Source: Collinsella sp. AK_207A
GTDB lineage: Bacteria > Actinomycetota > Coriobacteriia > Coriobacteriales > Coriobacteriaceae
Direction: 5' to 3'
DNA: 64,000 nucleotides
NCBI RefSeq assembly: GCF_902501965.1
Contig: NZ_CABWID010000022.1
Location: 1-64,000 of the forward strand
Shown here one piece after another: positions 48,403 to 64,000 of this stretch. Within the stretch, counting starts at the first letter, position 1. Each line of letters begins with the position of its first letter. The notes beneath the pieces are model-generated. The model saw only the letters and a program-made list of their open reading frames with translations. It ran no database searches and was not told the DNA's origin. Position numbers and translations under genes: made by a program.

Positions 48403-49033
48403 GCCGATTTTGGACGCCAAGGGGCGCCGTCGCTGCAAGACCATCGCCTTTCGCATGTCGCCCGCAGAGGCAGACCAGCTCGACCTCCGCGTCGCCCTGA
48501 GCGGCCTGTCGAAGCAGGACTTCATCGCGAGAAGCCTGTTGGAAGGCACTTTTACCGTGGTCGCGACCACCCGTATGCGCAAGGCGGTCAAGGAGCGCGT
48601 GGGGCCTGTCGTAGCGGAACTCCGACGTATCCGGCGCGCAGGAGATATGGACGACGAGCTCGTCGAGTCGCTTGAGACGCTCTCCGCCTTCGCCGGGTCG
48701 TTCGTACCCGAGCGCTCCCCCGTGGAACTTGAAGACGCGCTTATCGCAAACCTCGGGATGGACGACGGCCTCCCCTACCAAAGCTCGACCGTCGCCCAAA
48801 AACATGAGCCCAACGTAAGGAGGACCCTGTCGATGAATCTTAGCATGATGAATTCCGCCCGACGCCGCGCCGTCTTGCGCGACTACGGCCTCGACCACCC
48901 CCTGTCGGAGGAAGAGCTGGTTGAGCGTCTGGTCGACGTGGAGCTTCGCCTCAGCCGGCTCGAAGCGCTTGTCTCCGGCAAGAACTACCCCGTCAATGGC
49001 CCTCGACGCCCCCAGTCTCGTGGGGTGGCCTGA
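48395..49033 (+). CDS. mobilization accessory protein with ribbon-helix-helix-like N-terminus
   Basis: 212 aa; overlaps the integrase stop by eight bases. KTIAFRMSPAEADQLDLRVA with SKQDFIARSLLEG is a MobC/RHH-like DNA-binding segment. The middle is acidic, and the C-terminus has a coiled coil (EELVERLVDVELRLSRLEAL). Probably a relaxosome or replication helper; the identification is by motif and neighbourhood. Confidence 0.55.
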   Translation: MSRPILDAKGRRRCKTIAFRMSPAEADQLDLRVALSGLSKQDFIARSLLEGTFTVVATTRMRKAVKERVGPVVAELRRIRRAGDMDDELVESLETLSAFAGSFVPERSPVELEDALIANLGMDDGLPYQSSTVAQKHEPNVRRTLSMNLSMMNSARRRAVLRDYGLDHPLSEEELVERLVDVELRLSRLEALVSGKNYPVNGPRRPQSRGVA

Positions 49034-50262
49034 TGGGTACGCAGAAGCACGACGACGTCCCCGAGCCGCAGCCCCCGGAGCGCCGCTCCCCGCCGACGGT
49101 CAACGAGATCGTCGAAGAGCTCAAGTCCCTCCCCTTGAACGTCGGCTACAACCGACTCGCGAACGAGCTCTTCAAGACCGGGCCCCTCCCCTGGGACGCG
49201 GATGCGAGGGAACGCCGGTGGCGCGACAGCGACGACGCGCGGCTCTTCGCCCTCCTCCAACAGACCATCTCCCTCCAGAAGGAGAAGTTCATGCTGCTCG
49301 CATTGACCATCGTCGCCGAGGACAACGCCTACGACCCGCTCGTCGCCATGCTCGACGCCCTCACCTGGGACGGCACTCAGCGCGTAGGGACGCTTCTCAA
49401 CGCCTATCTCGGTGCGGAGAAGAGCGTATACGTCTCGGAGGTCGAGCGCATCCTGTTCTGCGAGGGCATCGCCCGCGCCTACAACCCGGGCTGCAAGGCC
49501 GACTACATGCCTATCCTGTGCGGTGCCGGGGGCATCGGCAAGTCCTCCTTCGCGAGGGGCCTTGCCATGCGCGACGAGTACTTCAGCGACTCCGTGATTA
49601 ACCTCGGTGACGTCAAGCTCACGGGCGAGCAGAACCGGGGCAAGTGGATCATTGAAATCCCCGAGCTCAACGGCATGTCCGAGCGCTCCGTCGAGAGTGT
49701 CAAGGCCGGAATTACCCGCCAGGTCGACGAATTCCGCGGGGCCTACTGCCGGCGGACGGAGGCTTTCCCACGGCGCGTGGTCTTCGTCGGTACCACGAAC
49801 GAGGCCGACTTCATCCGCGAGCGGACGAGCGGCGCAAGGCGCTTCCTCCCAGTGCTCTGTGGCATCGAGCGCACAGAGAATTCCGTCTTCGACGAGGACT
49901 TTCCCGCCGCCGTCCGCCAGGCATGGGCGGAGGCCCGTACCTGGATGAAGACGGGCGACCCCCGCTTCTCAACCATCCTCACACCTGAGATGGAGGCCGA
50001 GGCAGCCATGCAGCGCGGACGCTTCGTCGAGGAAGACCCCTGTGTGCAGAAGGTCCTCGCATATCTCCCCGGTAATACCGACCGTCCCATGTGCACGTTC
50101 GAGATCCTCGATAAGGCCCTCCACCTTGAGAAGACCAAGGCCAACTGCAAGATGGTCAGCCGCATCCTCTCGTCGCAGTGCCCCGGTTGGGTTCCGGGCA
50201 ACAAGCGTCTCTGCCCTCCATACGGCAAGCAGCGCTGTTGGGTGTTCCGGGGAATGGATTAG
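49033..50262 (+). CDS. virulence-associated E (VapE)-type helicase/ATPase
   Basis: 409 aa. VapE/DUF3987-like core: LTWDGTQRVGTLLNAYLGAE, Walker A GAGGIGKSSFARGL, YFSDSVINLGDVKLTGEQNR, IIEIPELNGM and RRVVFVGTTNE. The last residues form a winged helix (CTFEILDKALHL). These are SF3-type replicative helicases of phages, satellites and IMEs. The usual N-terminal primase half is absent. It may support replication of the excised circle. Confidence 0.8.
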   Translation: MGTQKHDDVPEPQPPERRSPPTVNEIVEELKSLPLNVGYNRLANELFKTGPLPWDADARERRWRDSDDARLFALLQQTISLQKEKFMLLALTIVAEDNAYDPLVAMLDALTWDGTQRVGTLLNAYLGAEKSVYVSEVERILFCEGIARAYNPGCKADYMPILCGAGGIGKSSFARGLAMRDEYFSDSVINLGDVKLTGEQNRGKWIIEIPELNGMSERSVESVKAGITRQVDEFRGAYCRRTEAFPRRVVFVGTTNEADFIRERTSGARRFLPVLCGIERTENSVFDEDFPAAVRQAWAEARTWMKTGDPRFSTILTPEMEAEAAMQRGRFVEEDPCVQKVLAYLPGNTDRPMCTFEILDKALHLEKTKANCKMVSRILSSQCPGWVPGNKRLCPPYGKQRCWVFRGMD

Positions 50263-50485
50263 GGCCGATGGGGTGCCACAGCATGCTGCAGCGGCACCCT
50301 ATCTTCCGCCCTTCACCTGCAAGACCTTGCGGACGGTGCCGAAGGTGCCATGGATTCCAAAACTCTTAACCGAGCTTGGGCACCTTTGGCACCACGCAAC
50401 CTCCCCGCAGCTAGAACCATCACCGACCAAGACATTCGAGCGAATTGCCGGCACCCGTACGGCACCGGCAGAAAGGAAAACCACG

Positions 50486-50971
50486 ATGGAACTGATCAAG
50501 AAAATCAAATCGCGCCTCGACGACCTTCTCGGGACGATCCCCGAGCACAAGGGCGACGCCGTTGGCTCCGTGCTCGCCCATCTGCTGGAGTCCGATCCCG
50601 GCCTGAGCTTCGCACGAGCGGCGCGAGCCAGTGAACGCCCGGGCTTCACGCGCATTGTCCGCGCGGGGATCGCCTACTACGCAAAGCCGGAGTACAAGGT
50701 CCTGAATCCGTTCAAGGAAGGCGGGAACGGCGTCTACTTCGTCAAGGGCTGCAACGACGACCCCACCGGCATCTTCTTCACCGACGCCTACAACGTCGAC
50801 AATATGGAGTACAGCGATGCCATCGCGGCCTACCTCTTCGCCTACGGCATCCCCCGCGACGACCTCGTCATGGTGCCCGTCACCTTCTGGCCCAAGACCT
50901 ACGAGCGTACGCCCGAGAACATCGCCGCCCTCCGCTCCGTCGGCGCGCCCCTCCCGAACGAGGGGATCTGA
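50486..50971 (+). CDS. hypothetical protein of the mobilizable element
   Basis: 161 aa from ATG 50486 with gaaagga upstream. A helical N-terminus (KIKSRLDDLLGTIPEHKGDA) is followed by a mixed domain (PGFTRIVRAGIAYYAKPEYK, YFVKGCNDDPTGIFFTDAYN, PVTFWPKTYERTPENIAAL). No family recognised. It sits between the VapE gene (223-base gap without a gene, 50263-50485) and the mobilization genes. The position suits an antirestriction or copy-control role but nothing proves it. Confidence 0.55.
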   Translation: MELIKKIKSRLDDLLGTIPEHKGDAVGSVLAHLLESDPGLSFARAARASERPGFTRIVRAGIAYYAKPEYKVLNPFKEGGNGVYFVKGCNDDPTGIFFTDAYNVDNMEYSDAIAAYLFAYGIPRDDLVMVPVTFWPKTYERTPENIAALRSVGAPLPNEGI

Positions 50972-50972
50972 T

Positions 50973-51437
50973 ATGGCCGCCGGCAAAGACCGGTCGAAGG
51001 TCATGAGCCTTCGCCTCCCCGACAAGACCTACCGTCGGCTCCACGCCTACGGGGTTTCCAGGGGTCTCAGCGACAGTGCAGCCACGCGCGAGCTCATCAC
51101 CGCCGGGCTAGCCTCCGACGGGCTCTCGCTCTACTCCACCGAGCTCGGCACCTATCTTCGCGGCGTCATGCAGCCGCTGCTGGAGCAGCTCGACCGCACG
51201 CTCGGCGAGCGCAACGCCGAGCAGGAGGACCGCATCGCGCGCGTCGTCCACCGAGCGACACGAGCCTCCATCGTCGCAGCTATCGCGGCGGTCGAGATCG
51301 AGAAGGGCACGTTCGAGGGCCTGGGCGGCGTGAGCGCCTCGGACATCTATGCCGCCTACGACAAGCAGGCCGGTCTCATGCAGCGCGGCATGACGCTCTC
51401 GGAGGCGAGGGAGCGCCTGTCAGATGGCAAGTCGTAG
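50973..51437 (+). CDS. relaxosome accessory protein (MobC-like, ribbon-helix-helix)
   Basis: 154 aa. VMSLRLPDKTYRRLHAYGVS is a ribbon-helix-helix DNA-binding motif; the rest is helical with a long coiled coil (MQPLLEQLDRTLGERNAEQE). It starts two bases after the preceding gene and overlaps the relaxase start by 14 bases, as MobC-type helpers usually do. Probably assists nicking at oriT, which should be nearby but is not identified. Confidence 0.65.
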   Translation: MAAGKDRSKVMSLRLPDKTYRRLHAYGVSRGLSDSAATRELITAGLASDGLSLYSTELGTYLRGVMQPLLEQLDRTLGERNAEQEDRIARVVHRATRASIVAAIAAVEIEKGTFEGLGGVSASDIYAAYDKQAGLMQRGMTLSEARERLSDGKS

Positions 51438-52782
51438 CAGCCTCGTCGTGAATGCCCACGTGCACCTCTCCGGGTCGCGCGGGCGCTCCGCCGTCATCAC
51501 CAACAACGTCGAGTACATCGCCACACGCGAGGGAGCCGACAAGTCCGCCACCGTCGACGACCTCAGGCGCTCCGCGCTCGCCAAGAGGATGGGTCTCGTC
51601 GGCTACTGCGCCGAGAGACCCGGGTCGACCGCGCTCTTCGACCAGGACGGGGCCATCCCGCTCCGCGCAGCCCGCAGGGAGCTCGAGAAAGCCGATGGCG
51701 CGATCGCCACCGTCGTGCTCAGCGTGCGAAGAGACGAGGCGAGCGAGCTCGATCTCGCCTGCAAGGAGGATTGGCAGCGCTTCTGTCGCCGGAACCTCAC
51801 ACCAGCACTCGCCGAGGCGATGGACGTCCCCGAGTCAAGCGTCCGCTGGGTGGCCGCCGAGCACGAGAACCACCCGAGCTCCAAGCACGTGCACGTCATA
51901 GCGTGGTCGTCCGACGGCTTGTTCGACTCGCTCATAGCCCGCAGCAGGCTCAATCGGGCAAGAGGGGCGCTTACCGACGCGGCCCTGGCCCCAGCTCTCG
52001 CGGCCGAGCACGAGGCTCGCGACCTCGCGAGATCGCGAACAGTCGAAGCCACCCGCCGCGTTCCCGCCGAGGAGATAGACGTCGCGCTGCCGCCGAACGG
52101 CCGCATATCCTACGCACACCTCCACCGCTGGCACCCAGATGTCGCCAGGGCGGTCGACACCGCGATTGCGAAAGCCGAGTCAAAGCACCCTGAAATCAAG
52201 GAAGCGGGCACCTCCTACCGCGAATCCGTGGAGCGCTGCGCCGGCCTCAAGGGCCTCGAAGGCGTCGCAAGAGACCGTTACGTAAACGACGCCGTTCGCG
52301 AACTGCGCGTACGCCAGGGCAACGCCCTGCTGAGAACCATCGCGCCAGACCGAACGACGGCCAACGAGCGGGAACCGATAGCGTCTGCAAGGCTGGACGA
52401 CGGCCCCGCAACGGAACGCAAGCGCATGAGGACGCTCATCGGCGAAATCCGTGCCTGCGTCACAGGTAAAGACCTGGAGGAGGCGCGGAAAGCCGTCCGC
52501 GAGCGGAGGCCCATCCCGGAGAGTTGTCTCCGGCCATGCCCGTCCTACGCGCTCTCCATGGCAAAAGCCCCCGTTGCGGCGGGAAAAGCTCTTGCCAAAG
52601 CGCTCGTATCCGCAACGGAAAACTCGAAAGGCAGGAAGGACCTGTCAGACGAGGTCGGGCGAAAAGCCGAGCGCGTGCTCGCAAGAGCATTGGCAGCGGC
52701 CATATCGGCCGCGATCAGGGGCGATGCAGCTGGCATCGTGCTGGCACCGGCGAAAACGATAGTGAAGGGAATGATTCTATGA
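51424..52782 (+). CDS. MobP-type relaxase
   Basis: 452 aa. The three-histidine metal motif is visible in AEHENHPSSKHVHVIAWS (about 155-170). The N-terminus has VEYIATREGAD and RMGLVGYCAERPGS, preceding the catalytic region, as in MobP3-like relaxases of Coriobacteriia and Firmicutes. The C-terminal third is a basic helical tail. The enzyme nicks oriT and pilots the strand. It overlaps the coupling-protein gene by four bases (ATGA). No type IV secretion genes are in the window, so transfer would need a helper element. Confidence 0.8.
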   Translation: MASRSSLVVNAHVHLSGSRGRSAVITNNVEYIATREGADKSATVDDLRRSALAKRMGLVGYCAERPGSTALFDQDGAIPLRAARRELEKADGAIATVVLSVRRDEASELDLACKEDWQRFCRRNLTPALAEAMDVPESSVRWVAAEHENHPSSKHVHVIAWSSDGLFDSLIARSRLNRARGALTDAALAPALAAEHEARDLARSRTVEATRRVPAEEIDVALPPNGRISYAHLHRWHPDVARAVDTAIAKAESKHPEIKEAGTSYRESVERCAGLKGLEGVARDRYVNDAVRELRVRQGNALLRTIAPDRTTANEREPIASARLDDGPATERKRMRTLIGEIRACVTGKDLEEARKAVRERRPIPESCLRPCPSYALSMAKAPVAAGKALAKALVSATENSKGRKDLSDEVGRKAERVLARALAAAISAAIRGDAAGIVLAPAKTIVKGMIL

Positions 52783-54719
52783 GCAAGCAGAAGAGTTTCA
52801 ACGTTGACGAGGCCGCGCACTTCAAGCGCTGTGTCGCCACCAGCGCGGCCGTCGGGGTCGCGATCGCACTCGTGCCGTTGCCCGCAATATGGCGCTGGCT
52901 GAGGGCATGGGTTGTCGGCACGGCAGCGACACTCGCCAGCTTCGGCACAGCTATGGTGCCCAAACTCCCCGAGACCGTGCTCCAAAACCCGCTCGAAGCC
53001 CTGCCGGAGCTGATCGGGGACGACACCTTCCTCGCGGGATGCGCGACAATCCTCGTCCTCTCAATAGCCGCCGGTATCTGGAGCCACCTCGACTGGTCCC
53101 GTTGGCTCCACGACGGGACCTGGGTCGGCGGACGTCGCGCGCCAGGCGCACCCATCCACGGCGACGCAAGGCTCATCTCAGCACACGGTGAGCTAAAGCG
53201 CAGAAGCGAATCATGGCAGGAAGGCAAAAGGCCCTCAGGCGGCACACTGGTCGTGGGCGAGGTCGGAAAGAGCATCAGGCTCATCGACTCGGTCCACGCC
53301 TGCATCCTCGCCGAGAGTGGCGAGGGCAAGAGTCGCCGTATCGCGATCATGTCCGCCATGGCAAACTTCGAGCAGGGTCGCTCGATCGTGATCAACGACA
53401 TCAAGGGCGAGCTCAGGGCCTACCTTGAGCCAGCGTTCGAGAAGGCGGGCACGCACCGCATCGTCGACGTTATGTTCGACGCGCCCGCGTCCTCAGTACG
53501 ATTCAATCCGCTCGAAAGGGCAAAAGAGGCCTTTAGGGCGGAGGGGGCCGGCGGCTGTGCGAGGGAGCTGCGCGAGCTCGCGCGCTGCATCGTACCCTCA
53601 CCGTCGAAAGGCCAGCCATTCTTCTACGACGGCGCTCGAAACCTCTTCGTCGGCATCTCCCTCACCCTCATCGAGAACGCCTCCATTCCGGAAGACGAGA
53701 AGACCGTCATGTCCGTCGCGGCCGCGATCTCGCCCTTGGGCGACCAGGGCCCGCTCGACCGCATCGCCGCCCTGGCAGCATCCCTGCCCGCTAGAGACCC
53801 CGCGCTCCCCTTCCTCGGCGGACTCAACGGCGAGCACGGGGGCGGGCCCGGCATCGTCTCGACCTTGAGCAACTGCCTCACCGAATACGTCGATGGCAAC
53901 GTGGCCCGGATGCTCCACGATGACGAGTGCGGTCTCGGGGGCATCGGCGAGGAACCCACGGTGGTCTTCATCTCATCGTCCTCGGCAACGGGCAACTACA
54001 AGCGACTCGTCCAGACGTTCGTTTCGCAAGCGCTCTCGGCGCTGCGCTCCTGCGCTGCGGGCCATGCCGGACGCTGCCCCGTCGAGACCGTCCTCCTCCT
54101 CGACGAGGCGGCCTCCCTCGGCCGCAACGAGAGGATCGTCCAGGACCTGGGAGAGATGCGCTCGGAGGGCATCCACGTCCTCTGGTTCTGCCAGTCGCTC
54201 CTCCAGCTCCAGTCCGTCTCCGGCTACAGCCAAGAAGAGGCCGAGACGATACTCGACCTCCTCAAGGACAAGGTCGTTCTCTCCTGCTCCAACCTGGACA
54301 CCGCACGCAAGCTCTCGGAGTCGATGGGCTCCTACACAGCGATCGCACAGTCCACGAGCCGAACGAAGGGAACGAACACCGGGTCGACGGGCACGAGCGA
54401 GGGGCTCGTGCGCAGGCCGCTCATCACGCCCGACGAGCTCCAGCGTTGGACCGGCCGCGAGACGGGAGCCCTCGTTATCCACGACGGCGTGCCGATGGCC
54501 TTTCCCAGCAGAGACGTCACCGAGACTTTCGTGGGAACCATGCTCGGGATGACGTCGCCCGATGCCGAGCGGGCGCTCATGGAGCAATCGACCGCTCGTC
54601 GTAAGGTCAGGAACGGGACGGTCCCGGAGGTTTGGCAGGGCCCGACCGCCCCCGATGCCACGGCGGCAGCGCCAACGAAGCCGAAAACGGTCGCAGGTTA
54701 CGTTCCCGAGGGCTTCTAG
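52779..54719 (+). CDS. VirD4/TraG-type coupling protein
   Basis: 646 aa from ATG 52779. Two N-terminal membrane helices (about 22-45 and 85-105), then the ATPase: Walker A-like LAESGEGKSRRIAIMSAM, NDIKGELRAYLEP, FNPLERAKEAF, Walker B VETVLLLDEAASLGR, and LWFCQSLLQLQSV. Coupling proteins link the relaxosome to a secretion channel. Walker A reads GEGKS instead of GxGKS/T with a preceding E-S, still functional in the family. It ends the element's core operon; a terminator follows. Confidence 0.85.
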   Translation: MSKQKSFNVDEAAHFKRCVATSAAVGVAIALVPLPAIWRWLRAWVVGTAATLASFGTAMVPKLPETVLQNPLEALPELIGDDTFLAGCATILVLSIAAGIWSHLDWSRWLHDGTWVGGRRAPGAPIHGDARLISAHGELKRRSESWQEGKRPSGGTLVVGEVGKSIRLIDSVHACILAESGEGKSRRIAIMSAMANFEQGRSIVINDIKGELRAYLEPAFEKAGTHRIVDVMFDAPASSVRFNPLERAKEAFRAEGAGGCARELRELARCIVPSPSKGQPFFYDGARNLFVGISLTLIENASIPEDEKTVMSVAAAISPLGDQGPLDRIAALAASLPARDPALPFLGGLNGEHGGGPGIVSTLSNCLTEYVDGNVARMLHDDECGLGGIGEEPTVVFISSSSATGNYKRLVQTFVSQALSALRSCAAGHAGRCPVETVLLLDEAASLGRNERIVQDLGEMRSEGIHVLWFCQSLLQLQSVSGYSQEEAETILDLLKDKVVLSCSNLDTARKLSESMGSYTAIAQSTSRTKGTNTGSTGTSEGLVRRPLITPDELQRWTGRETGALVIHDGVPMAFPSRDVTETFVGTMLGMTSPDAERALMEQSTARRKVRNGTVPEVWQGPTAPDATAAAPTKPKTVAGYVPEGF

Positions 54720-56280: not shown

Positions 56281-56376
56281 GGTTCCGATGGCTCCCCCTA
56301 TGAGAAGCGCGTCGACGCCAAGGGGCGCGTGCTGAGCGACAAGAGCATCGCGGAGGAGGTGCCGTTCGAGATTCCC
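56281..56376 (+). repeat. hsdS inverted repeat 1, left copy
   Basis: About 96 bases inverted at 59806-59901 with about two differences. Lies before recognition domain 1 in both genes, so inversion here exchanges both domains. Confidence 0.85.
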
Positions 56377-56760
56377 GGCGGATGGACATGGACGAGAATC
56401 GGCGCGCTCTTTGAAATGAAGGCCGGTAAGAATATCAAGGCAGCCGAGATTTCTGAAGTGGCGGACGACAAGGCCCTGTATCGCTGTTATGGAGGCAATG
56501 GAGTCCGTGGGTACGTTTCACGTTTCAACAATGAGGGGGATTTTCCAATAATCGGGCGCCAAGGTGCTCTTTGCGGAAATGTCCAACGAGCAACCGGTAG
56601 GTTCTATGCGACTGAGCATGCAGTTGTAACTACCTGTCCATCCGAAGTTAGCGTTGCTTGGGCATGCCTATTTCTTAGGGCGCTCGACCTGAATCAATAT
56701 GCGACCGCGACCGCTCAACCCGGTTTGGCCGTCTCTAAGATTACCGAGGTTTTGATCCCC

Positions 56761-56915
56761 CTCCCTCCCCTGGCCGAGCAGCGCCGCATCGTCGAACGCG
56801 TCAACGAGCTCATGCCCCTCGTCGAGGAGTACGGCGAGCTCGAGGACGCCCGCGAGGAGCTCGACGCCGCGCTGCCCGGGCGCCTGCGCAGATCCGTGCT
56901 TCAGGAGGCCGTGCA
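56761..56915 (+). repeat. hsdS inverted repeat 2, left copy
   Basis: Conserved central helix region, inverted at about 59220-59370 with a few differences (EELDAALPGRLRRS against EALDAALPGRLRKS). Inversion here exchanges domain 2 only. Confidence 0.8.
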
Positions 56916-57057
56916 GGGCAAACTTGTATCGCAGGACCCCGACGACGAGCCCGTTGGCGTCTTGCTTGAGCGCATCCGTGAACAGCGCAGGCAGCTTATA
57001 AACGAGAAGAAGATGAAGCTCCCCAAGGGCGGCGAGTCCGTCATCTACACCGCTTCC

Positions 57058-57176
57058 GATGGCCGCCGCTATGAGAAGCGCGTCGACGCCAGGGGCCGCG
57101 AGTCCGAGCCCGTCTGCATCGAGGACGAGATCCCCTTCGACATCCCGGAGAGCTGGGCGTGGGCGAGGCTGGAGAG
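57058..57176 (+). repeat. hsdS inverted repeat 3, left copy
   Basis: Segment coding GRRYEKRVDARGRESEPVCI and on to SWAWARLES, inverted at about 58957-59073. Directly precedes domain 2 in both genes. Confidence 0.8.
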
Positions 57177-57710
57177 CGTGACCTCGTACATCCAGAGGGG
57201 CAAGTCGCCCAAGTACTCGATGGTCGAGAAATACCCCGTGGTTGCCCAGAAATGCAACCAATGGGCAGGTTTCTCCCTTGAGAAGGCGAAGTTCGTCGAC
57301 CCCGACACCGTAGAGAAGTACGACGATGATCGCATCCTCAGGGACGGGGACCTCCTCTGGAACTCCACCGGGCTGGGCACGCTGGGACGCATGGCCGTTT
57401 ACGACTCGAAGAAGAACAAGTACGGCTGGGCCGTTGCGGACAGCCACGTGACGGTCATACGGACACACGAGGACTGGCTCTGCTTCGCGTACGCCTTCGC
57501 GTACTTCGCCGGGCCATCGGTCCAGTCCGTCATCGAGGACCAGGCGAGCGGCAGCACGAAGCAGAGGGAACTTTCGCAAGAAACGGTAAAGCAGTATCTC
57601 GTCCCCCTCCCGCCCCTGGCCGAGCAGCGTCGCATCGTCGAGCGCGTGGAAGAGGTGCTCTCACAACTAATCTAAACTGTAGTTTCATGGCATCAACGAA
57701 GGGGGATGTC

Positions 57711-58508
57711 ATGGAACAGTTCGCTAGTTATTTGTTGTTTAGAGGCTTTTCGAAAAAAACCGTAGACTCCTATACGTTTGCCGCAAGACAGCTCAGATCA
57801 AGATGCCAGTACTTAACGGACCAGTCGCTCCTAGAGCACAAGGAGTGGCTGGTCGCCTCTTTTGCGCCAAAGACCGCAAACAATCGCATCGGGGCTATTA
57901 ACGCGTATTTGGACTATCTCGGCTACGAAGGTCTGCGGTTAAAAGGAGTCCGCGTCCAACAGAAGCCGTTCTTGGACAAGGTAATCAGCAACGAGCAATA
58001 CGGCATCATCCGGCGCGGTCTTGAACGCGATGGGGACTGGTATTGGAATCTCGTTGTCCGGTATTTGGCGTGTACGGGAGCCCGCGTGAGCGAGCTGCGT
58101 AAGTTCACCATTGCACATGTGCGCAATGGTTACATGGACATTCTTTCCAAAGGCCAGAAGCTGCGCCGTATTTGGATACCACGGGAGCTTCAAGATCATA
58201 CGCTTGAGCTGTGCTTGAGCAAATCGGGTGACGACCCACTGTTTCCGGGCCCGTCGGGCGATGCTATTTCGCAGAGGGGCATAGCCTTGGGACTAAAGCG
58301 AATCGCAGTCCGCTACGGAGTTGATCCGGATGTCGTTTATCCGCACTCCTTCAGGCACCTCTTTGCAAAGAACTTCATAGCCCGAGACCCCGACATCGCT
58401 TTTCTAGCCGATCTCATGGGGCACGAAAGCATCGAGACGACCCGCATATACCTGCGGCGCACTGCTAGCGAGCAGCGCGCCGCAGTTGATAGGACTATTG
58501 ACTGGTAA
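57711..58508 (+). CDS. tyrosine recombinase of the hsdS inversion system
   Basis: 265 aa from ATG 57711, which has ribosome site gggggatg; an ATG at 57687 is less well placed. XerC/D-like: core-binding domain (EQFASYLLFRGFSKKTVDSY), catalytic Arg in CTGARVSELRKF, Lys in LSKGQKLRRI, box PHSFRHLFAKNF, His in LMGHESIETT and Tyr in RIYLRRT. Recombinases of this group lie between expressed and silent hsdS genes (PsrA/CreX type) and invert them. Its 3' end overlaps that of the expressed hsdS by 14 bases, tail to tail. Confidence 0.9.
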   Translation: MEQFASYLLFRGFSKKTVDSYTFAARQLRSRCQYLTDQSLLEHKEWLVASFAPKTANNRIGAINAYLDYLGYEGLRLKGVRVQQKPFLDKVISNEQYGIIRRGLERDGDWYWNLVVRYLACTGARVSELRKFTIAHVRNGYMDILSKGQKLRRIWIPRELQDHTLELCLSKSGDDPLFPGPSGDAISQRGIALGLKRIAVRYGVDPDVVYPHSFRHLFAKNFIARDPDIAFLADLMGHESIETTRIYLRRTASEQRAAVDRTIDW

Positions 58509-60084
58509 TCAGAGCCAATATTGCATTGGCGGTCGTCACGATACGAACTTGCTCTTGAAGGGGAGGGAAGGGAACAAGTGCGTGGAGCAGGGTCGAGCGC
58601 TCTATCCCCGGAATAACCCCCTTCGCCTGAGATTTGATGGCTTCGACCATGCAGCCAAGGAACACGGTGATGTAGGGCAATGTCTGCTTTTTAGATGGCA
58701 TTATCGACATGATCTGGCGAGCGATGTGTGCCTGGTCAAACGAATTTAGCGCCATCTCACCCACTGTGCCTTTACATGTAAATAAAAGCTCGCCGCGACG
58801 GCTTATCCGACTCACTTCTTCCGTCCAGCGATTCTCAATCAATGAGCCGTGTTTGAAATTAGAAGCCCCGGTGAGATAAGGGACTCCTTTCCCCAAATCG
58901 TTATATTGGGCTGGCTTTAGGTCTGTTCCCGACAGCAGGGTAATTAAACTTTCCAGCCTCGCCCACGCCCAGCTCTCCGGGATGTCGAAGGGGATCTCGT
59001 CCTCGATGCAGACGGGCTCGGACTCGCGGCCCCTGGCGTCGACGCGCTTCTCATAGCGGCGGCCATCGGAACCGGCGAAGACGACGGACTCGCCGCCCTT
59101 GGGGGCCTTCATCTTCTTCTCGGCCACAAGCTGGCGGCGCTGCTCGCGGATGCGCTCAAGCAACTCGCTCGCGGGCTCGTCGGAGGGATCCTGCGGCACG
59201 AGCTTGCCCCGCACGGCCATCTGCAGCACCGACTTGCGCAGACGGCCGGGCAGGGCGGCGTCCAGCGCCTCGCGGGCGTCCTCGAGCTCGCCGTACTCCT
59301 CGACGAGGGGCATGAGCTCGTTGACGCGTTCGACGATGCGGCGCTGCTCGGCGAGGGGCGGGAGGGGGACGAGCAACCTCTTAACCATGGAGACGTTGAT
59401 GTGCTTAACACCGGTGCCAACGTTGGCTACAAGGTAAAGGTCCCATGCATAGGGTGAAGAAAGAACGACTTGACAATATTTGTTGAGAAGGAGCTTGGGA
59501 TTGGAGCTCAACAGCATTACGCGTTGGCCAAGACATACACATTCTGAATCGAGGATTACGGACCTGCCGATGGATCCTTCGCGAGAAAAGACGATGTCTC
59601 CAGGTCTTGGGACATATCTTCCGGTGCGCCTCCTGTAGCTTTCCTCGGATAGATTTCTGAGATCCGTAAGATTCCAATTGTCATCCATGCAGTTGGTGTC
59701 AATTGCGGTAAAACCTGTTGCGGCTGCAAGGTACTGTGGAGTTGAGTGCGGGCAATCAACAACGTTCTTGCAGCAGTCCTCCAACCTCGCCCAGGTCCAG
59801 TTTCCTGGAATCCCGAACGGCACCTCCTCCGCGATGCTCTTGTCGCTCAGCACGCGCCCCTTGGCGTCGACGCGCTTCTCATAGGGGGAGCCATCGGAAC
59901 CGGTATAGATAATGCTCTCGCCGCCCTTGGGGAACTTGACCTTCCCCTCAACGATGAGCTTGTGCCTCTCCTCACGAATACGCTCGAGCAAAACACTTGC
60001 TGGCTCGTCATAGGGGTCCTGAGGCACGAGTTTGCCCTCGACCGCCATCTGGAGGATTGAGTTCTTGAGGTCCTTTGCCTTCAT
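58495..60084 (-). CDS. hsdS: type I restriction specificity subunit HsdS (expressed allele)
   Basis: 529 aa, longer than the usual 400. N-terminal helix region (MKAKDLKNSILQMAVEGKLV), recognition domain 1 (about 85-235), central conserved helices (LPPLAEQRRIVERVNELMPL), domain 2 (about 365-500), short tail. Each half carries an extra conserved stretch with the KGGES and YEKRVDA motifs, which are the inverted-repeat recombination sites. Starts directly after the hsdM stop codon. The two domains each recognise half of a bipartite DNA site; the site itself cannot be read from sequence. Confidence 0.9.
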   Translation of the reverse strand: MKAKDLKNSILQMAVEGKLVPQDPYDEPASVLLERIREERHKLIVEGKVKFPKGGESIIYTGSDGSPYEKRVDAKGRVLSDKSIAEEVPFGIPGNWTWARLEDCCKNVVDCPHSTPQYLAAATGFTAIDTNCMDDNWNLTDLRNLSEESYRRRTGRYVPRPGDIVFSREGSIGRSVILDSECVCLGQRVMLLSSNPKLLLNKYCQVVLSSPYAWDLYLVANVGTGVKHINVSMVKRLLVPLPPLAEQRRIVERVNELMPLVEEYGELEDAREALDAALPGRLRKSVLQMAVRGKLVPQDPSDEPASELLERIREQRRQLVAEKKMKAPKGGESVVFAGSDGRRYEKRVDARGRESEPVCIEDEIPFDIPESWAWARLESLITLLSGTDLKPAQYNDLGKGVPYLTGASNFKHGSLIENRWTEEVSRISRRGELLFTCKGTVGEMALNSFDQAHIARQIMSIMPSKKQTLPYITVFLGCMVEAIKSQAKGVIPGIERSTLLHALVPFPPLQEQVRIVTTANAILALITSQ

Positions 60085-61563
60085 CTACGCCTCAATTCCG
60101 AGAATCTCGCAGATCTGGGCAAGCTTCTGGTCAATCTCGGCGTCAAGCCTGGCACGCTCCGCCTTGTAGCTCCTGATGAGCTCGTCGGGCGGCAGGATTT
60201 CCTCCTCCTCGTGTGGGTAGCCGCACAGGTCGAAGTTGAAGCCACCGTCGCGCAGCTCATCAACGGTGTAGAACCTGGCCTTCGGGTTTCCGTCCTCAAC
60301 GATCTCCCAGCGGTTCTCCCACCATTCTTTCACGGGCGCAAAGTGATCCGATTTGATGGGCTTGGTCTTAGAGAAGTGCTTGTAACCCTCGGGCATATCC
60401 ATGCGATAGAACCAGACGCCTTCGGAAGGTGTGGTGTTGTCGAAGAACAGGACGTTGGTGGTGATGGGCGTATAGGGAGCAAACACGCTCTGCGGAAGAC
60501 GCAGGACGGTGTGCAGGTTCATCTCCTCCAACAAGCGCCGCTTGATCTCGGTCTTGGCGCCGTCCTGGCCGAACAGGAAACCGTCCGGGATGATAACAGC
60601 GGCGCGACCGTTTCTCTTAAGACGGTAGAGGATGAGAGCTAAGAACAGGTCAGCGGTCTCGGAGCTGCGAAGCGCGGCCGGGAAGTTGTTCTGAACAGAA
60701 GCGCTCTCGGAGCCTCCGTAGGGAGGGTTCATGAGCACGACATCAAACTGACCGTCGGGCTTGTGTCGCCACTCGCGGACGTCCTTCTCGAGGGAGTTGT
60801 CATGGAACACCTGCGGGTTATCGATGTCATGCAGAAGCATGTTGGTCACGCAGAGAAGGTAGGGAAGCTGCTTTTTCTCGATACCGTAGATTGATTTTGC
60901 GTAGAGCTCGCGGTCGGCCGGAGTCTGCACTTGAGCGTCGAGGATTTTGAGCGCGCTCGTAAGGAAGCCGCCGGTACCGCACGCGAAGTCGGCCACGGTC
61001 TCGCCGAGTTTAGGCGCAAGTGCCTGGGCCATGAAGTCGGTAACGGCGCGCGGGGTATAGAACTCGCCGGCGTTGCCCGCCGACTGCAGATCTTTAAGGA
61101 TGGTCTCGTAGATCTCACCGAAGGCATGGCGTTCCTTGTACTCGGTGAAGTCGACGGCGCCGTCGATCTCGTTGACGACCTGGCGCAGCAGGATGCCGTC
61201 CTTCATGTAGTTGTTAGCGTCGGTGAAGGCCGCCTTCACGACGGCGTGGCGCAGCGGCGCGTCTGGCGCGAGCTCGAGGCTCTCAAGGGTCTTGAACAGG
61301 TCATTGTTTACGAAGTCAAGCAGCTCGTCGCCAGTAAGCGCCTTGCCGTCCATGTTGTCGTGCGCCCAGCTGTGCCAGCGCAGGCGCTCGGGGATGATGG
61401 ACCTATAGGAGTCGTCGTGGAACTCCCACTCTTGCTCCTTGGCGTCGTATATCTTGAGGAAGAACAGCCACGTCATCTGTTCGATGCGTTGGGCATCGCC
61501 GTTGATACCGGCGTCCTTGCGCATGATGTTCTGAAGGGTCTTTACGAGAGATCCCAGCGCCAT
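60085..61563 (-). CDS. hsdM: type I restriction-modification DNA methyltransferase subunit HsdM
   Basis: 492 aa. N-terminal helical domain (LGSLVKTLQNIMRKDAGING, WLFFLKIYDAKEQ). SAM-binding motif ADFACGTGGFLTS (about 190), catalytic LMNPPYGG (about 272), then PDGFLFGQDGAKTEIK and FAPYTPITTNVLFF. It methylates adenine in the sequence set by HsdS and forms the M2S and R2M2S complexes. Ribosome site aaagg, 19 bases after hsdR. Confidence 0.95.
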   Translation of the reverse strand: MALGSLVKTLQNIMRKDAGINGDAQRIEQMTWLFFLKIYDAKEQEWEFHDDSYRSIIPERLRWHSWAHDNMDGKALTGDELLDFVNNDLFKTLESLELAPDAPLRHAVVKAAFTDANNYMKDGILLRQVVNEIDGAVDFTEYKERHAFGEIYETILKDLQSAGNAGEFYTPRAVTDFMAQALAPKLGETVADFACGTGGFLTSALKILDAQVQTPADRELYAKSIYGIEKKQLPYLLCVTNMLLHDIDNPQVFHDNSLEKDVREWRHKPDGQFDVVLMNPPYGGSESASVQNNFPAALRSSETADLFLALILYRLKRNGRAAVIIPDGFLFGQDGAKTEIKRRLLEEMNLHTVLRLPQSVFAPYTPITTNVLFFDNTTPSEGVWFYRMDMPEGYKHFSKTKPIKSDHFAPVKEWWENRWEIVEDGNPKARFYTVDELRDGGFNFDLCGYPHEEEEILPPDELIRSYKAERARLDAEIDQKLAQICEILGIEA

Positions 61564-61582: not shown

Positions 61583-63931
61583 TTACGCGACGTAGAGCTC
61601 GTCCTCGAGCCTCTGCGCCGCCTGGATGTACTGTTGCTTGCCTCCGAACGCGGCGACGATCTTCATGGGGTTGCCAAAGCGCCGAAACTCCTCGAGGTCA
61701 AGGACGTGGGTGTCGTCCAGGTCGACGAGGTTTGACGTCGCGTACTTGTCGAGCAGGGCCTCGAGGACCTCACGGGCCACCCCGGCGTACTCATAGAGCA
61801 CGCCCTTCTTCTTGACGTTGTTGGCCCTCTCGCTCCGCGTGAGGGGCCTCTGGTCGTAGGCGATGTGGCAGATGAGATCGAAGTCGCTCATCTGCTCCTG
61901 CCCCGATTCGCGGCGGAGTTCGTCGAGGAACACGCCGTGGGCGCGCAGCTCGTCGATGATGGCCTGTTTCTTGTGCTCCGAGTTCCACGCCGCGAGGAAG
62001 TGGTCCAGGGTGTCGAACTCTCCCAGGATGTTCTTGCGGGTGTAGTCTTTCAGGCTCTCGGTCACGAGCTGCCCGTCAGAGGAGTAGTACTGAACAATCT
62101 CGGAGACGACGTAGACGTCGGCGCCGTGCACGTGGTACTTGATATGGCCCGGAGGGTCGTCCGGTGGGTCGACGGGCGACCATTCCGGGCCGGGCGGGTC
62201 GACGATGACGCCAGGGTCGTCCCCCGTGCCGGGATTCGTCGGGTCGTCTTCCGGAGGCGTCATAGGTCCGTCCTCGGGGGGATCGAAGATGACGACTGGT
62301 TCGCCGTCGAAGTCCGGATCGGCGAACAGGCGCGACGCGTCGCGGAAGTCCAGGATGGTGAAGTAGCGCTTGCCGTAGTCCTCACAGATTCGCGTGCCTC
62401 GCCCGATAATCTGCTTGAACTCGGTCATGCCATGCCCGCCGAACTTGTTGTCCAGGACGATGACCTTGCAGGTCTTGCAGTTGACGCCGGTGGTGAGGAG
62501 CTTAGACGTGGTGACGATGGTCGGGAACTTCTCGTCCGGGTCGATGAAGTTGTCGAGCTGCGCCTTGCCTTCCTTGTCATCGCCCGTGATCTTCATAATG
62601 TAGGTCGGGTGGTCCTTCACGATGTCGGCGTTCTCGTTCACGAGTGCGCGGCGCATGTTCTCCGCATGCTCGATGTCTACGCAGAAGACAATGGTCTTCG
62701 AGTAGCGGTCGGTCTCCTTGAGGAACTGGGTGACCTTCTTGGCCACCTGCTCGTAGCGCTCCTTGATGACGATCTCGCTGTCGAAATCCTGCTTCTCGAA
62801 GACGCGCTTGGGCAGAACCTCACCGCGGTCGTCCTTGGCGCCCTCCTCAGTGCGATACCCGTTGACGTCAACGCTCAGCTTGGGGCGGATGACCTTGTAG
62901 GGTGCCAAGAAACCGTCCTCTATTCCCTGCTTGAGCGAGTAGGTATAGACGGGTTCCCCGAAGTAGGTGATGTTGGAAACGTCCTCAGTCTCCTTAGGCG
63001 TGGCCGTCATGCCGATCTGGATGGCGCCGCTGAAGTACTCGAGCACCTTACGCCAGGCGGAGTCCTCCGCCGCGCTGCCGCGATGGCACTCGTCCACGAT
63101 GATGAGGTCGAAGAACTCGCGGTCGAATGCACGGAATATCTCCTCGCCGTCCTCCCCAACGAGCTGCTGATAGAGGGAGAAGTAGACCTCAAACGCCGAA
63201 TCGAGCTTTCGACCAGTCACCTTGGTCGTGACCTTCTTGAGCGGCTTGAAGTCCCCGTCGATGGTCTGATCAACGAGGATGTTCCGGTCGGCCAGATAGA
63301 GGACCTTGCGGACCTCGGTCGACTGGCGCAGGCGGTGCACGATCTGAAAGGCGGTGAACGTCTTGCCCGTTCCCGTGGCCATGACGAGGAGGATTCGGTC
63401 CTTACCTTGCGCTACGGCCTCGAGGGTGCGGTTGATGGCGATGCACTGGTAGTAGCGCGGTCGGTTGCCGCCGCGCTCCTGGTAATAGGGAGCGGTAACG
63501 ATCTCCTGACTGTGCGGGTTCTCGAGGCCTTTGGCTTTTGAGTAGCGCGCCCAGAGCTCGGCCGGAGATGGAAACTCGTCCATGGCAAGATCTCGTTCCT
63601 TGCCCGTAAGGAAATCATGTTCCACGAAGCCCTTGCCGTTGGAACTGTAGGCAAATGGAACATCGAGGGCCTCGGCGTAACCCATGCCCTGTTGAAGGCC
63701 AGCGTCGACGGTGTGGTCGGTATCCTTGGCCTCAACAATGGCAATAGGGATGTTCGGCGCATACATAAGAAGATAGTCGGCCTTCTTCTTGTCCCTGCGC
63801 GTGACCATGCTCCCTCGGACGACGATTTCGCCATCCGTGAAGTAGTACTCGGTGAAGACCTGGCTGTCGCGATCCCATGACTTCATGATCACGGGGTCTA
63901 TCAGCTTCAGCCGTGTGTCAGATTCATTCAT
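61583..63931 (-). CDS. hsdR: type I restriction endonuclease subunit HsdR
   Basis: 782 aa from ATG 63931 (ribosome site aggag; TTG 63940 is too close to it). N-terminal nuclease domain with KKADYLLMYAPNIPIAIVEAK (D-spacer-ExK). Motor domain with MATGTGKT, IIVDECHRG, GMTATPKE and IIGRGTRICEDYG. A proline/aspartate-rich linker (about 580-620, VDPPDDPPG-like repeats) joins the C-terminal EcoEI_R-type domain (YEYAGVAREVLEALLDKYAT). It translocates and cuts DNA lacking methylation. First gene of the hsdRMS operon; its promoter lies in 63932-64000. Confidence 0.95.
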   Translation of the reverse strand: MNESDTRLKLIDPVIMKSWDRDSQVFTEYYFTDGEIVVRGSMVTRRDKKKADYLLMYAPNIPIAIVEAKDTDHTVDAGLQQGMGYAEALDVPFAYSSNGKGFVEHDFLTGKERDLAMDEFPSPAELWARYSKAKGLENPHSQEIVTAPYYQERGGNRPRYYQCIAINRTLEAVAQGKDRILLVMATGTGKTFTAFQIVHRLRQSTEVRKVLYLADRNILVDQTIDGDFKPLKKVTTKVTGRKLDSAFEVYFSLYQQLVGEDGEEIFRAFDREFFDLIIVDECHRGSAAEDSAWRKVLEYFSGAIQIGMTATPKETEDVSNITYFGEPVYTYSLKQGIEDGFLAPYKVIRPKLSVDVNGYRTEEGAKDDRGEVLPKRVFEKQDFDSEIVIKERYEQVAKKVTQFLKETDRYSKTIVFCVDIEHAENMRRALVNENADIVKDHPTYIMKITGDDKEGKAQLDNFIDPDEKFPTIVTTSKLLTTGVNCKTCKVIVLDNKFGGHGMTEFKQIIGRGTRICEDYGKRYFTILDFRDASRLFADPDFDGEPVVIFDPPEDGPMTPPEDDPTNPGTGDDPGVIVDPPGPEWSPVDPPDDPPGHIKYHVHGADVYVVSEIVQYYSSDGQLVTESLKDYTRKNILGEFDTLDHFLAAWNSEHKKQAIIDELRAHGVFLDELRRESGQEQMSDFDLICHIAYDQRPLTRSERANNVKKKGVLYEYAGVAREVLEALLDKYATSNLVDLDDTHVLDLEEFRRFGNPMKIVAAFGGKQQYIQAAQRLEDELYVA

Positions 63932-64000
63932 AAGTCTCAAAACTCCTAAGCGCGGCAGGACGAAGACCGCTTGTGGGAATTCGTTACTTTTATCATCGCA

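Follow-up and report, generated by a model that had tools for sequence, protein, structure and literature searches.

An hsdS gene that faces a second, incomplete hsdS gene across the gene for a tyrosine recombinase raises the question of whether the domains of the encoded protein are exchanged by inversion and on which of the inverted repeats at the locus the recombinase acts. The locus was analyzed in a window of 64,000 nucleotides (the whole stretch of DNA under study), which represents contig C22 of a Collinsella-like genome of 2.1 Mb in 24 contigs. Three pairs of inverted repeats, termed A, B and C, connect the two hsdS copies. We assign a probability of about 0.9 to the reading that the locus is a phase-variable (inverting) Type I restriction-modification (R-M) system of the PsrA/CreX kind, whose dedicated recombinase acts on repeats A and C.

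Organization of the hsd locus

The genes hsdR (61583-63940, minus strand), hsdM (60085-61563, minus strand) and a full hsdS (58495-60084, minus strand) form one operon. HsdR belongs to the EcoAI/FtnUII family of restriction subunits (NF046051, 1106.7 bits versus a cut-off of 550), HsdM is an N6-adenine methyltransferase subunit (PF02384, PF12161), and the operon is an EcoAI-like (Type IB) Type I R-M system. The expressed hsdS encodes 529 amino acids with two TRDs, PF01420 matches it in two stretches, and its AlphaFold2 model (pLDDT 80.9) yielded a fold match to PDB 3okg with an E value of 5e-17. The silent hsdS (56281-57675, plus strand), which was delimited by alignment of the two copies and by PF profiles, is opposite in orientation and carries a different TRD1 and TRD2; the best stretch shared between corresponding TRDs comprises 76 residues at 30% identity. 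It is N-terminally incomplete and lacks the segment of 61 amino acids encoded at 59902-60084 (minus strand) in the expressed copy. A PsrA-like tyrosine recombinase (57687-58508, plus strand; PF00589) is encoded between the two copies, and the reading frames of hsdR, hsdM and the two hsdS copies are uninterrupted.

This gene layout bears out the arrangement described in an earlier note on this DNA, in which an expressed and a silent hsdS face each other across a tyrosine recombinase. Promoter-like matches in the locus did not rise above chance when compared with shuffled sequences; terminator matches were barely above the shuffles. The description of the silent copy as start-less holds for the missing first 61 HsdS residues but not for the reading frame itself, which is open upstream to 55966 and contains in-frame ATG, GTG and TTG codons. 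This upstream extension was searched and revealed no likeness to the HsdS N-terminus.

Homology to other Collinsella copies extends approximately over positions 56270-64020 and stops at both ends, which indicates that the R-M locus acts as a cassette of 7.7 kb placed in varied surroundings. Genes for a VapE-like protein, a MobP3-type relaxase and a CD1115-family VirD4 coupling protein adjoin it at 49033-54719, and this neighboring element is probably mobilizable or conjugative.

Inverted repeats and proposed recombination sites

The three repeat pairs are located where the earlier note had placed them, before TRD1 and between the TRDs. Repeat A (88 bp exact) precedes TRD1 at 56281-56368 (plus strand) in the silent and at 59814-59901 (minus strand) in the expressed copy. 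Repeat B (85 bp exact) follows TRD1 at 56773-56857 (plus strand) and 59268-59352 (minus strand), and repeat C (120 bp exact) precedes TRD2 at 57054-57173 (plus strand) and 58952-59071 (minus strand). A simple base-match estimate of the chance expectation for an exact inverted repeat of at least 85 bp in 6.5 kb amounts to ~1e-43. B and C are two exact blocks of a single homologous stretch of 421 bp; of its 41 mismatches, 38 are found in the 196-bp linker between B and C (81% identical). When the mismatches were placed at random, the fraction of trials with a run of at least 120 bp was 1e-5, and none of 200,000 trials had a second run of at least 85 bp.

As a correction to the earlier reading, only A and C of the three pairs hold the recombinase core, and B does not. 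The sequence CTATGAGAAGCGCGTCGACGCCA is common to all four copies of A and C, which are the only repeats with the core TATGAGAA. The window contains four instances of the more general core TATGRGAA, all at A and C, and a search for it in B was negative. In the two closest fully assembled relatives, Collinsella G001 (locus L098) and locus L006, B, linker and C are continuous as one repeat. As far as can be judged from the sequence, B is no separate recombinase site, and it was dismissed as a third one on account of the missing core.

Core sites of the dif/Xer type consist of two inverted 11-bp arms around a 6-bp center. A dif-like site of 28 bp with an 11+6+11 division, GGTTCCGATGG-N6-CTATGAGAAGC, is proposed for A and C. 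Candidate site A reads GGTTCCGATGG-CTCCCC-CTATGAGAAGC in the silent copy (56281-56308, plus strand) and has the same sequence in the expressed copy (59874-59901, minus strand). Candidate site C reads GCTTCCGATGG-CCGCCG-CTATGAGAAGC in the silent copy (57052-57079, plus strand), where it begins with GC and not GG, and GGTTCCGATGG-CCGCCG-CTATGAGAAGC in the expressed copy (59046-59073, minus strand). The centers and right arms of A and of C are thus identical between expressed and silent copies, and the two 6-bp centers, CTCCCC and CCGCCG, are unlike each other. When GGTTCCGATGG and GCTTCTCATAG are compared, 7 of 11 positions match. In the AlphaFold2 model of HsdS, both sites (residues 67-72 and 343-348) fall on the second strand of a small hairpin, which lies between the helices and the respective TRD and would be a sensible spot to join domains.

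The pattern TTCCGATRR-N6-YTATGAGAA, with at most one mismatch, is present exactly four times in the whole 2.1-Mb genome, all at A and C. A scan of 45 Collinsella genomes detected the exact site in five, the same five that possess a related hsdS; no match to the exact pattern was obtained in viral contigs. The motif ATAA-N6-TTATGT was found at one place in the strain's own genome, an AT-rich stretch at C14:227769.

The recombinase

The predicted recombinase carries all catalytic residues (R133, K155, H220, R223, H246 and Y255), which are near-invariant in 81 sequences; an inactive enzyme had been named beforehand as an observation that would speak against inversion. Over its full length the protein is 47.7% identical to WP_000651186.1, which is annotated as DNA invertase PsrA of a Streptococcus dysgalactiae plasmid, and the locus therefore encodes a PsrA-related enzyme. 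The nearest named locus, judged by the recombinase, belongs to Collinsella sp. BG-O-102 (66%). ATG 57711 is a more likely start than 57687; it is preceded by AAGGGGG (upstream sequence AAGGGGGATGTC), and relatives align from residues 4-12 onward. In the present state the recombinase gene is convergent with the expressed hsdS and overlaps it by 14 bp. Its orientation relative to hsdM among relatives is convergent in 15 and codirectional in 12 cases.

Recombinase similarity had retrieved 80 loci, and in 28 of them the profile search found no hsdS-like open reading frame; either some hsdS genes were missed or recombinases of this family also occur apart from hsdS. Several relatives display other arrangements. 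In Lachnospiraceae bacterium 3-2 (L009:7840-8023), the recombinase relative is followed by two inverted copies of a 26-bp palindrome, TTCCGATAA-GAAATA-TTATCGGAA, and the general form TTCCGATAA-N6-TTATCGGAA thus stands beside a member of this family; the copies bracket ~130 bp, adjoin an open reading frame of 831 residues and look like an invertible promoter. At L023:3850-5880, a relative lies by two open reading frames with an exact 43-bp inverted repeat that covers the codons of the methyltransferase NPPY motif and has the TTATCGGAA core, possibly an invertible methylase gene. The relative in locus L122 (genome G059, another genus of the family) contains an in-frame TGA.

Comparison across related loci

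Among the loci fetched by recombinase similarity, together with the window, 53 had enough flanking sequence on both sides. In 29 of these the recombinase is spanned by exact inverted repeats with a length of 22 bp or more, and in six more such repeats were seen on one side. Where hsdS genes flank the recombinase, the repeats recur on the Y-E-K codons before TRD1 and before TRD2. In 44 pairs of partner sites, the 30 bp to the left of the arm share 39% identity and the 30 bp to its right 86%; the left flank is thus tied to its slot, and the right flank is mobile. In low-GC relatives the left arm is poorly conserved in silent cassettes, and a full left arm may therefore not be required. One side result concerns the silent TRD1 of the window (56369-56755), which stands at position 1 and is 62-68% identical to position-2 TRDs in loci L008, L010 and L011; TRDs have thus changed position during evolution.

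The six central bases are identical in all ten same-class pairs, taken from relatives in several phyla. Comparisons between the A and C centers within a locus gave identity in none of 41 cases and at least two differing positions in every one. The site Tyr codon is TAT in 50 of 50 and the site Glu codon GAG in 48 of 50 instances, although GAG accounts for 28% of Glu codons in the low-GC loci; these fixed codons and the A/C difference are partly shared by descent, and nominal probabilities overstate their independence. The columns that are invariant in an alignment of 25 HsdS proteins served for comparison, and for most of the other invariant residues that have synonymous codons, between two and six of these are in use. 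This codon test ruled out chance or plain protein conservation as the source of the shared core. In locus L085 both sites encode NSYYEK with different synonymous codons, and the centers thus still differ. By comparison of relatives, the recombinase target appears narrowed to a short site embedded in invariant codons.

Rearrangement between Collinsella species

One and the same TRD1 occupies the expressed slot in Collinsella G001 and the silent slot in Collinsella G010 (95.6% identity over 800 bp). To the left of the site, the silent slot of G010 matches the silent slot of G001 at 94-99% identity and the expressed slot of G001 at 24-35%; to the right, it is 98-100% identical to the expressed TRD1 of G001. 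All these sequences agree over a stretch of 27 bp, and the switch falls within it. G001 and L006 have a common TRD2 (97% over 513 bp) and different TRD1s. Judged by these alignments, a rearrangement at A is shown between Collinsella species, and the site has recombined within the genus. The G001 recombinase is 67% identical to that of the window, and none was found in the broken assembly of G010. Separately, the hsdR of G001 (L098:12106-13764) matches residues 307-785 only and may be broken.

Proposed switching mechanism

In the proposed mechanism, the targets of a dedicated Xer-like tyrosine recombinase would be two sites within the coding sequence of hsdS. An inversion at the A sites would swap the whole unit of TRD1, linker and TRD2, one at the C sites would swap TRD2 alone, and the two inversions in succession would swap TRD1 with its linker. 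Sequence to the left of each center would stay with the expressed or silent slot, and sequence to the right would move. Four expressed HsdS proteins would result, presumably with four working specificities. The idea put forward in the earlier note, an exchange of both domains or of the second one with four specificities, is supported in this form and appears consistent with sites A and C and with all evidence at hand. For this strain, known in one assembled state, switching and a change of its methylome are predicted.

As the recombinase gene lies inside both invertible segments, each inversion is expected to flip it. Situated between the two TRD2s in a rigid block, it would be codirectional with the operon exactly when the now-silent TRD2 is expressed; it would then follow hsdS downstream on the same strand, and its expression may be linked to orientation. 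In pneumococcus, creX was 2.6-fold higher when oriented with the operon (PMC6620402).

Because the centers of A and C differ, A should not recombine with C. Extended to PsrA-type systems in several phyla, this leads to a model to which we give even odds: the 6-bp centers would act as an address code, with identical centers permitting A-A and C-C exchange and different centers forbidding A-C exchange, and selection at the DNA level would keep the site codons fixed. If true, such a switch forbids the A-C exchange that would yield proteins with one or three TRDs.

Three other explanations of the repeats have to be weighed. General recombination or gene conversion acting on long repeats could account for most of the exchange between the copies, and the recombinase would then contribute little. 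The exactness of B over 85 bp despite its missing core and the continuous B-linker-C repeat of L006 and G001 fit this idea. Loss of CreX had no effect at the pneumococcal 85-bp repeat, and inversions at the 85-bp and 333-bp repeats persist without it (PMC6620402). Some pneumococcal inversions thus proceed without CreX (PMC6620402), which makes other routes possible at the Collinsella locus as well. In most relatives, however, partner sites match only from the 6-bp center rightward, often over a few tens of bases, which is short for homologous recombination; the fixation of site codons at the DNA level and the switch between G001 and G010 inside the 27-bp site likewise argue against this explanation, and we regard it as unlikely.

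A locked relic, which inverted in ancestors and no longer does so in this strain, would account for the single assembled state known, and the stop codon in the recombinase of L122 demonstrates that decay occurs. Yet the window's recombinase is intact with its full catalytic set, the centers and right arms of A and C match between the copies, and both hsdS genes, hsdM and hsdR are open, which leaves little room for this idea. Slightly less probable again is B as a third independent site with a different core, by which the linker would be exchanged too and eight gene forms would arise. The exact 85 bp of B beside a linker of 81% identity would be explained, but the core in the window stands at A and C alone and no separate B block exists in L006 and G001. 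Inversion by the dedicated recombinase at A and C is thus the preferred reading.

Relation to known systems

The closest comparison is the pneumococcal SpnIII/cod locus with CreX (PsrA), which likewise combines a Type I operon, a silent hsdS donor and a dedicated tyrosine recombinase at the locus. The pneumococcal core ATTATGGGAA (PMC6620402) and the Collinsella core CTATGAGAA are near-identical, and in both systems the bases beside the core vary between repeats; in pneumococcus the core follows GAAAC in the 85-bp repeat and CTCTT in the repeats of 15 bp and 333 bp (PMC6620402). The C-type site of several Clostridia loci reads CTCTTA followed by TTATGAGAA, and the centers of the S. dysgalactiae locus are GAAACC and CTCTCC. 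The identity to PsrA and the matches of core and centers indicate that the system of the window belongs to the known PsrA/CreX kind. Unlike SpnIII, the Collinsella locus has two and not three hsdS genes, hence four forms instead of six, in a high-GC host, and its left arm GGTTCCGATGG is conserved in the expressed and the silent slot alike.

The four-way switch SsuCC20p of Streptococcus suis also places a CreX-family tyrosine recombinase among hsdS genes with four variants (PMC5198162; PMC7394358). It differs in host lineage, and isolates of S. suis displayed all four variants, whereas those of Collinsella are predicted from sequence alone. Inverted repeats before the 5' TRD and between TRDs also characterize the inverting Type I systems of a REBASE repeat search (PMC7394358); the main text of that paper mentions neither Collinsella, Eggerthella nor Actinobacteria. 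The gut 'inverton group 145' of a defined community, in which invertons overlap genes for restriction subunit S with a tyrosine recombinase and mobilization genes nearby, is similar by description, and the text does not name Collinsella (PMC11892184). A literature search for Collinsella with hsdS inversion found no report; the matches concerned hydroxysteroid dehydrogenases.

The type of system is already known and the reading has good support; what is finer here than in the earlier note is the definition of its sites, each of the two being narrowed to 28 bases. The system is documented in Collinsella, a common human gut genus, together with a natural rearrangement at a 27-bp site, and the comparison across relatives suggests why the two exchange reactions stay separate. 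The pneumococcal puzzle of repeats that have the same core and behave differently thereby becomes directly testable through the six central bases.
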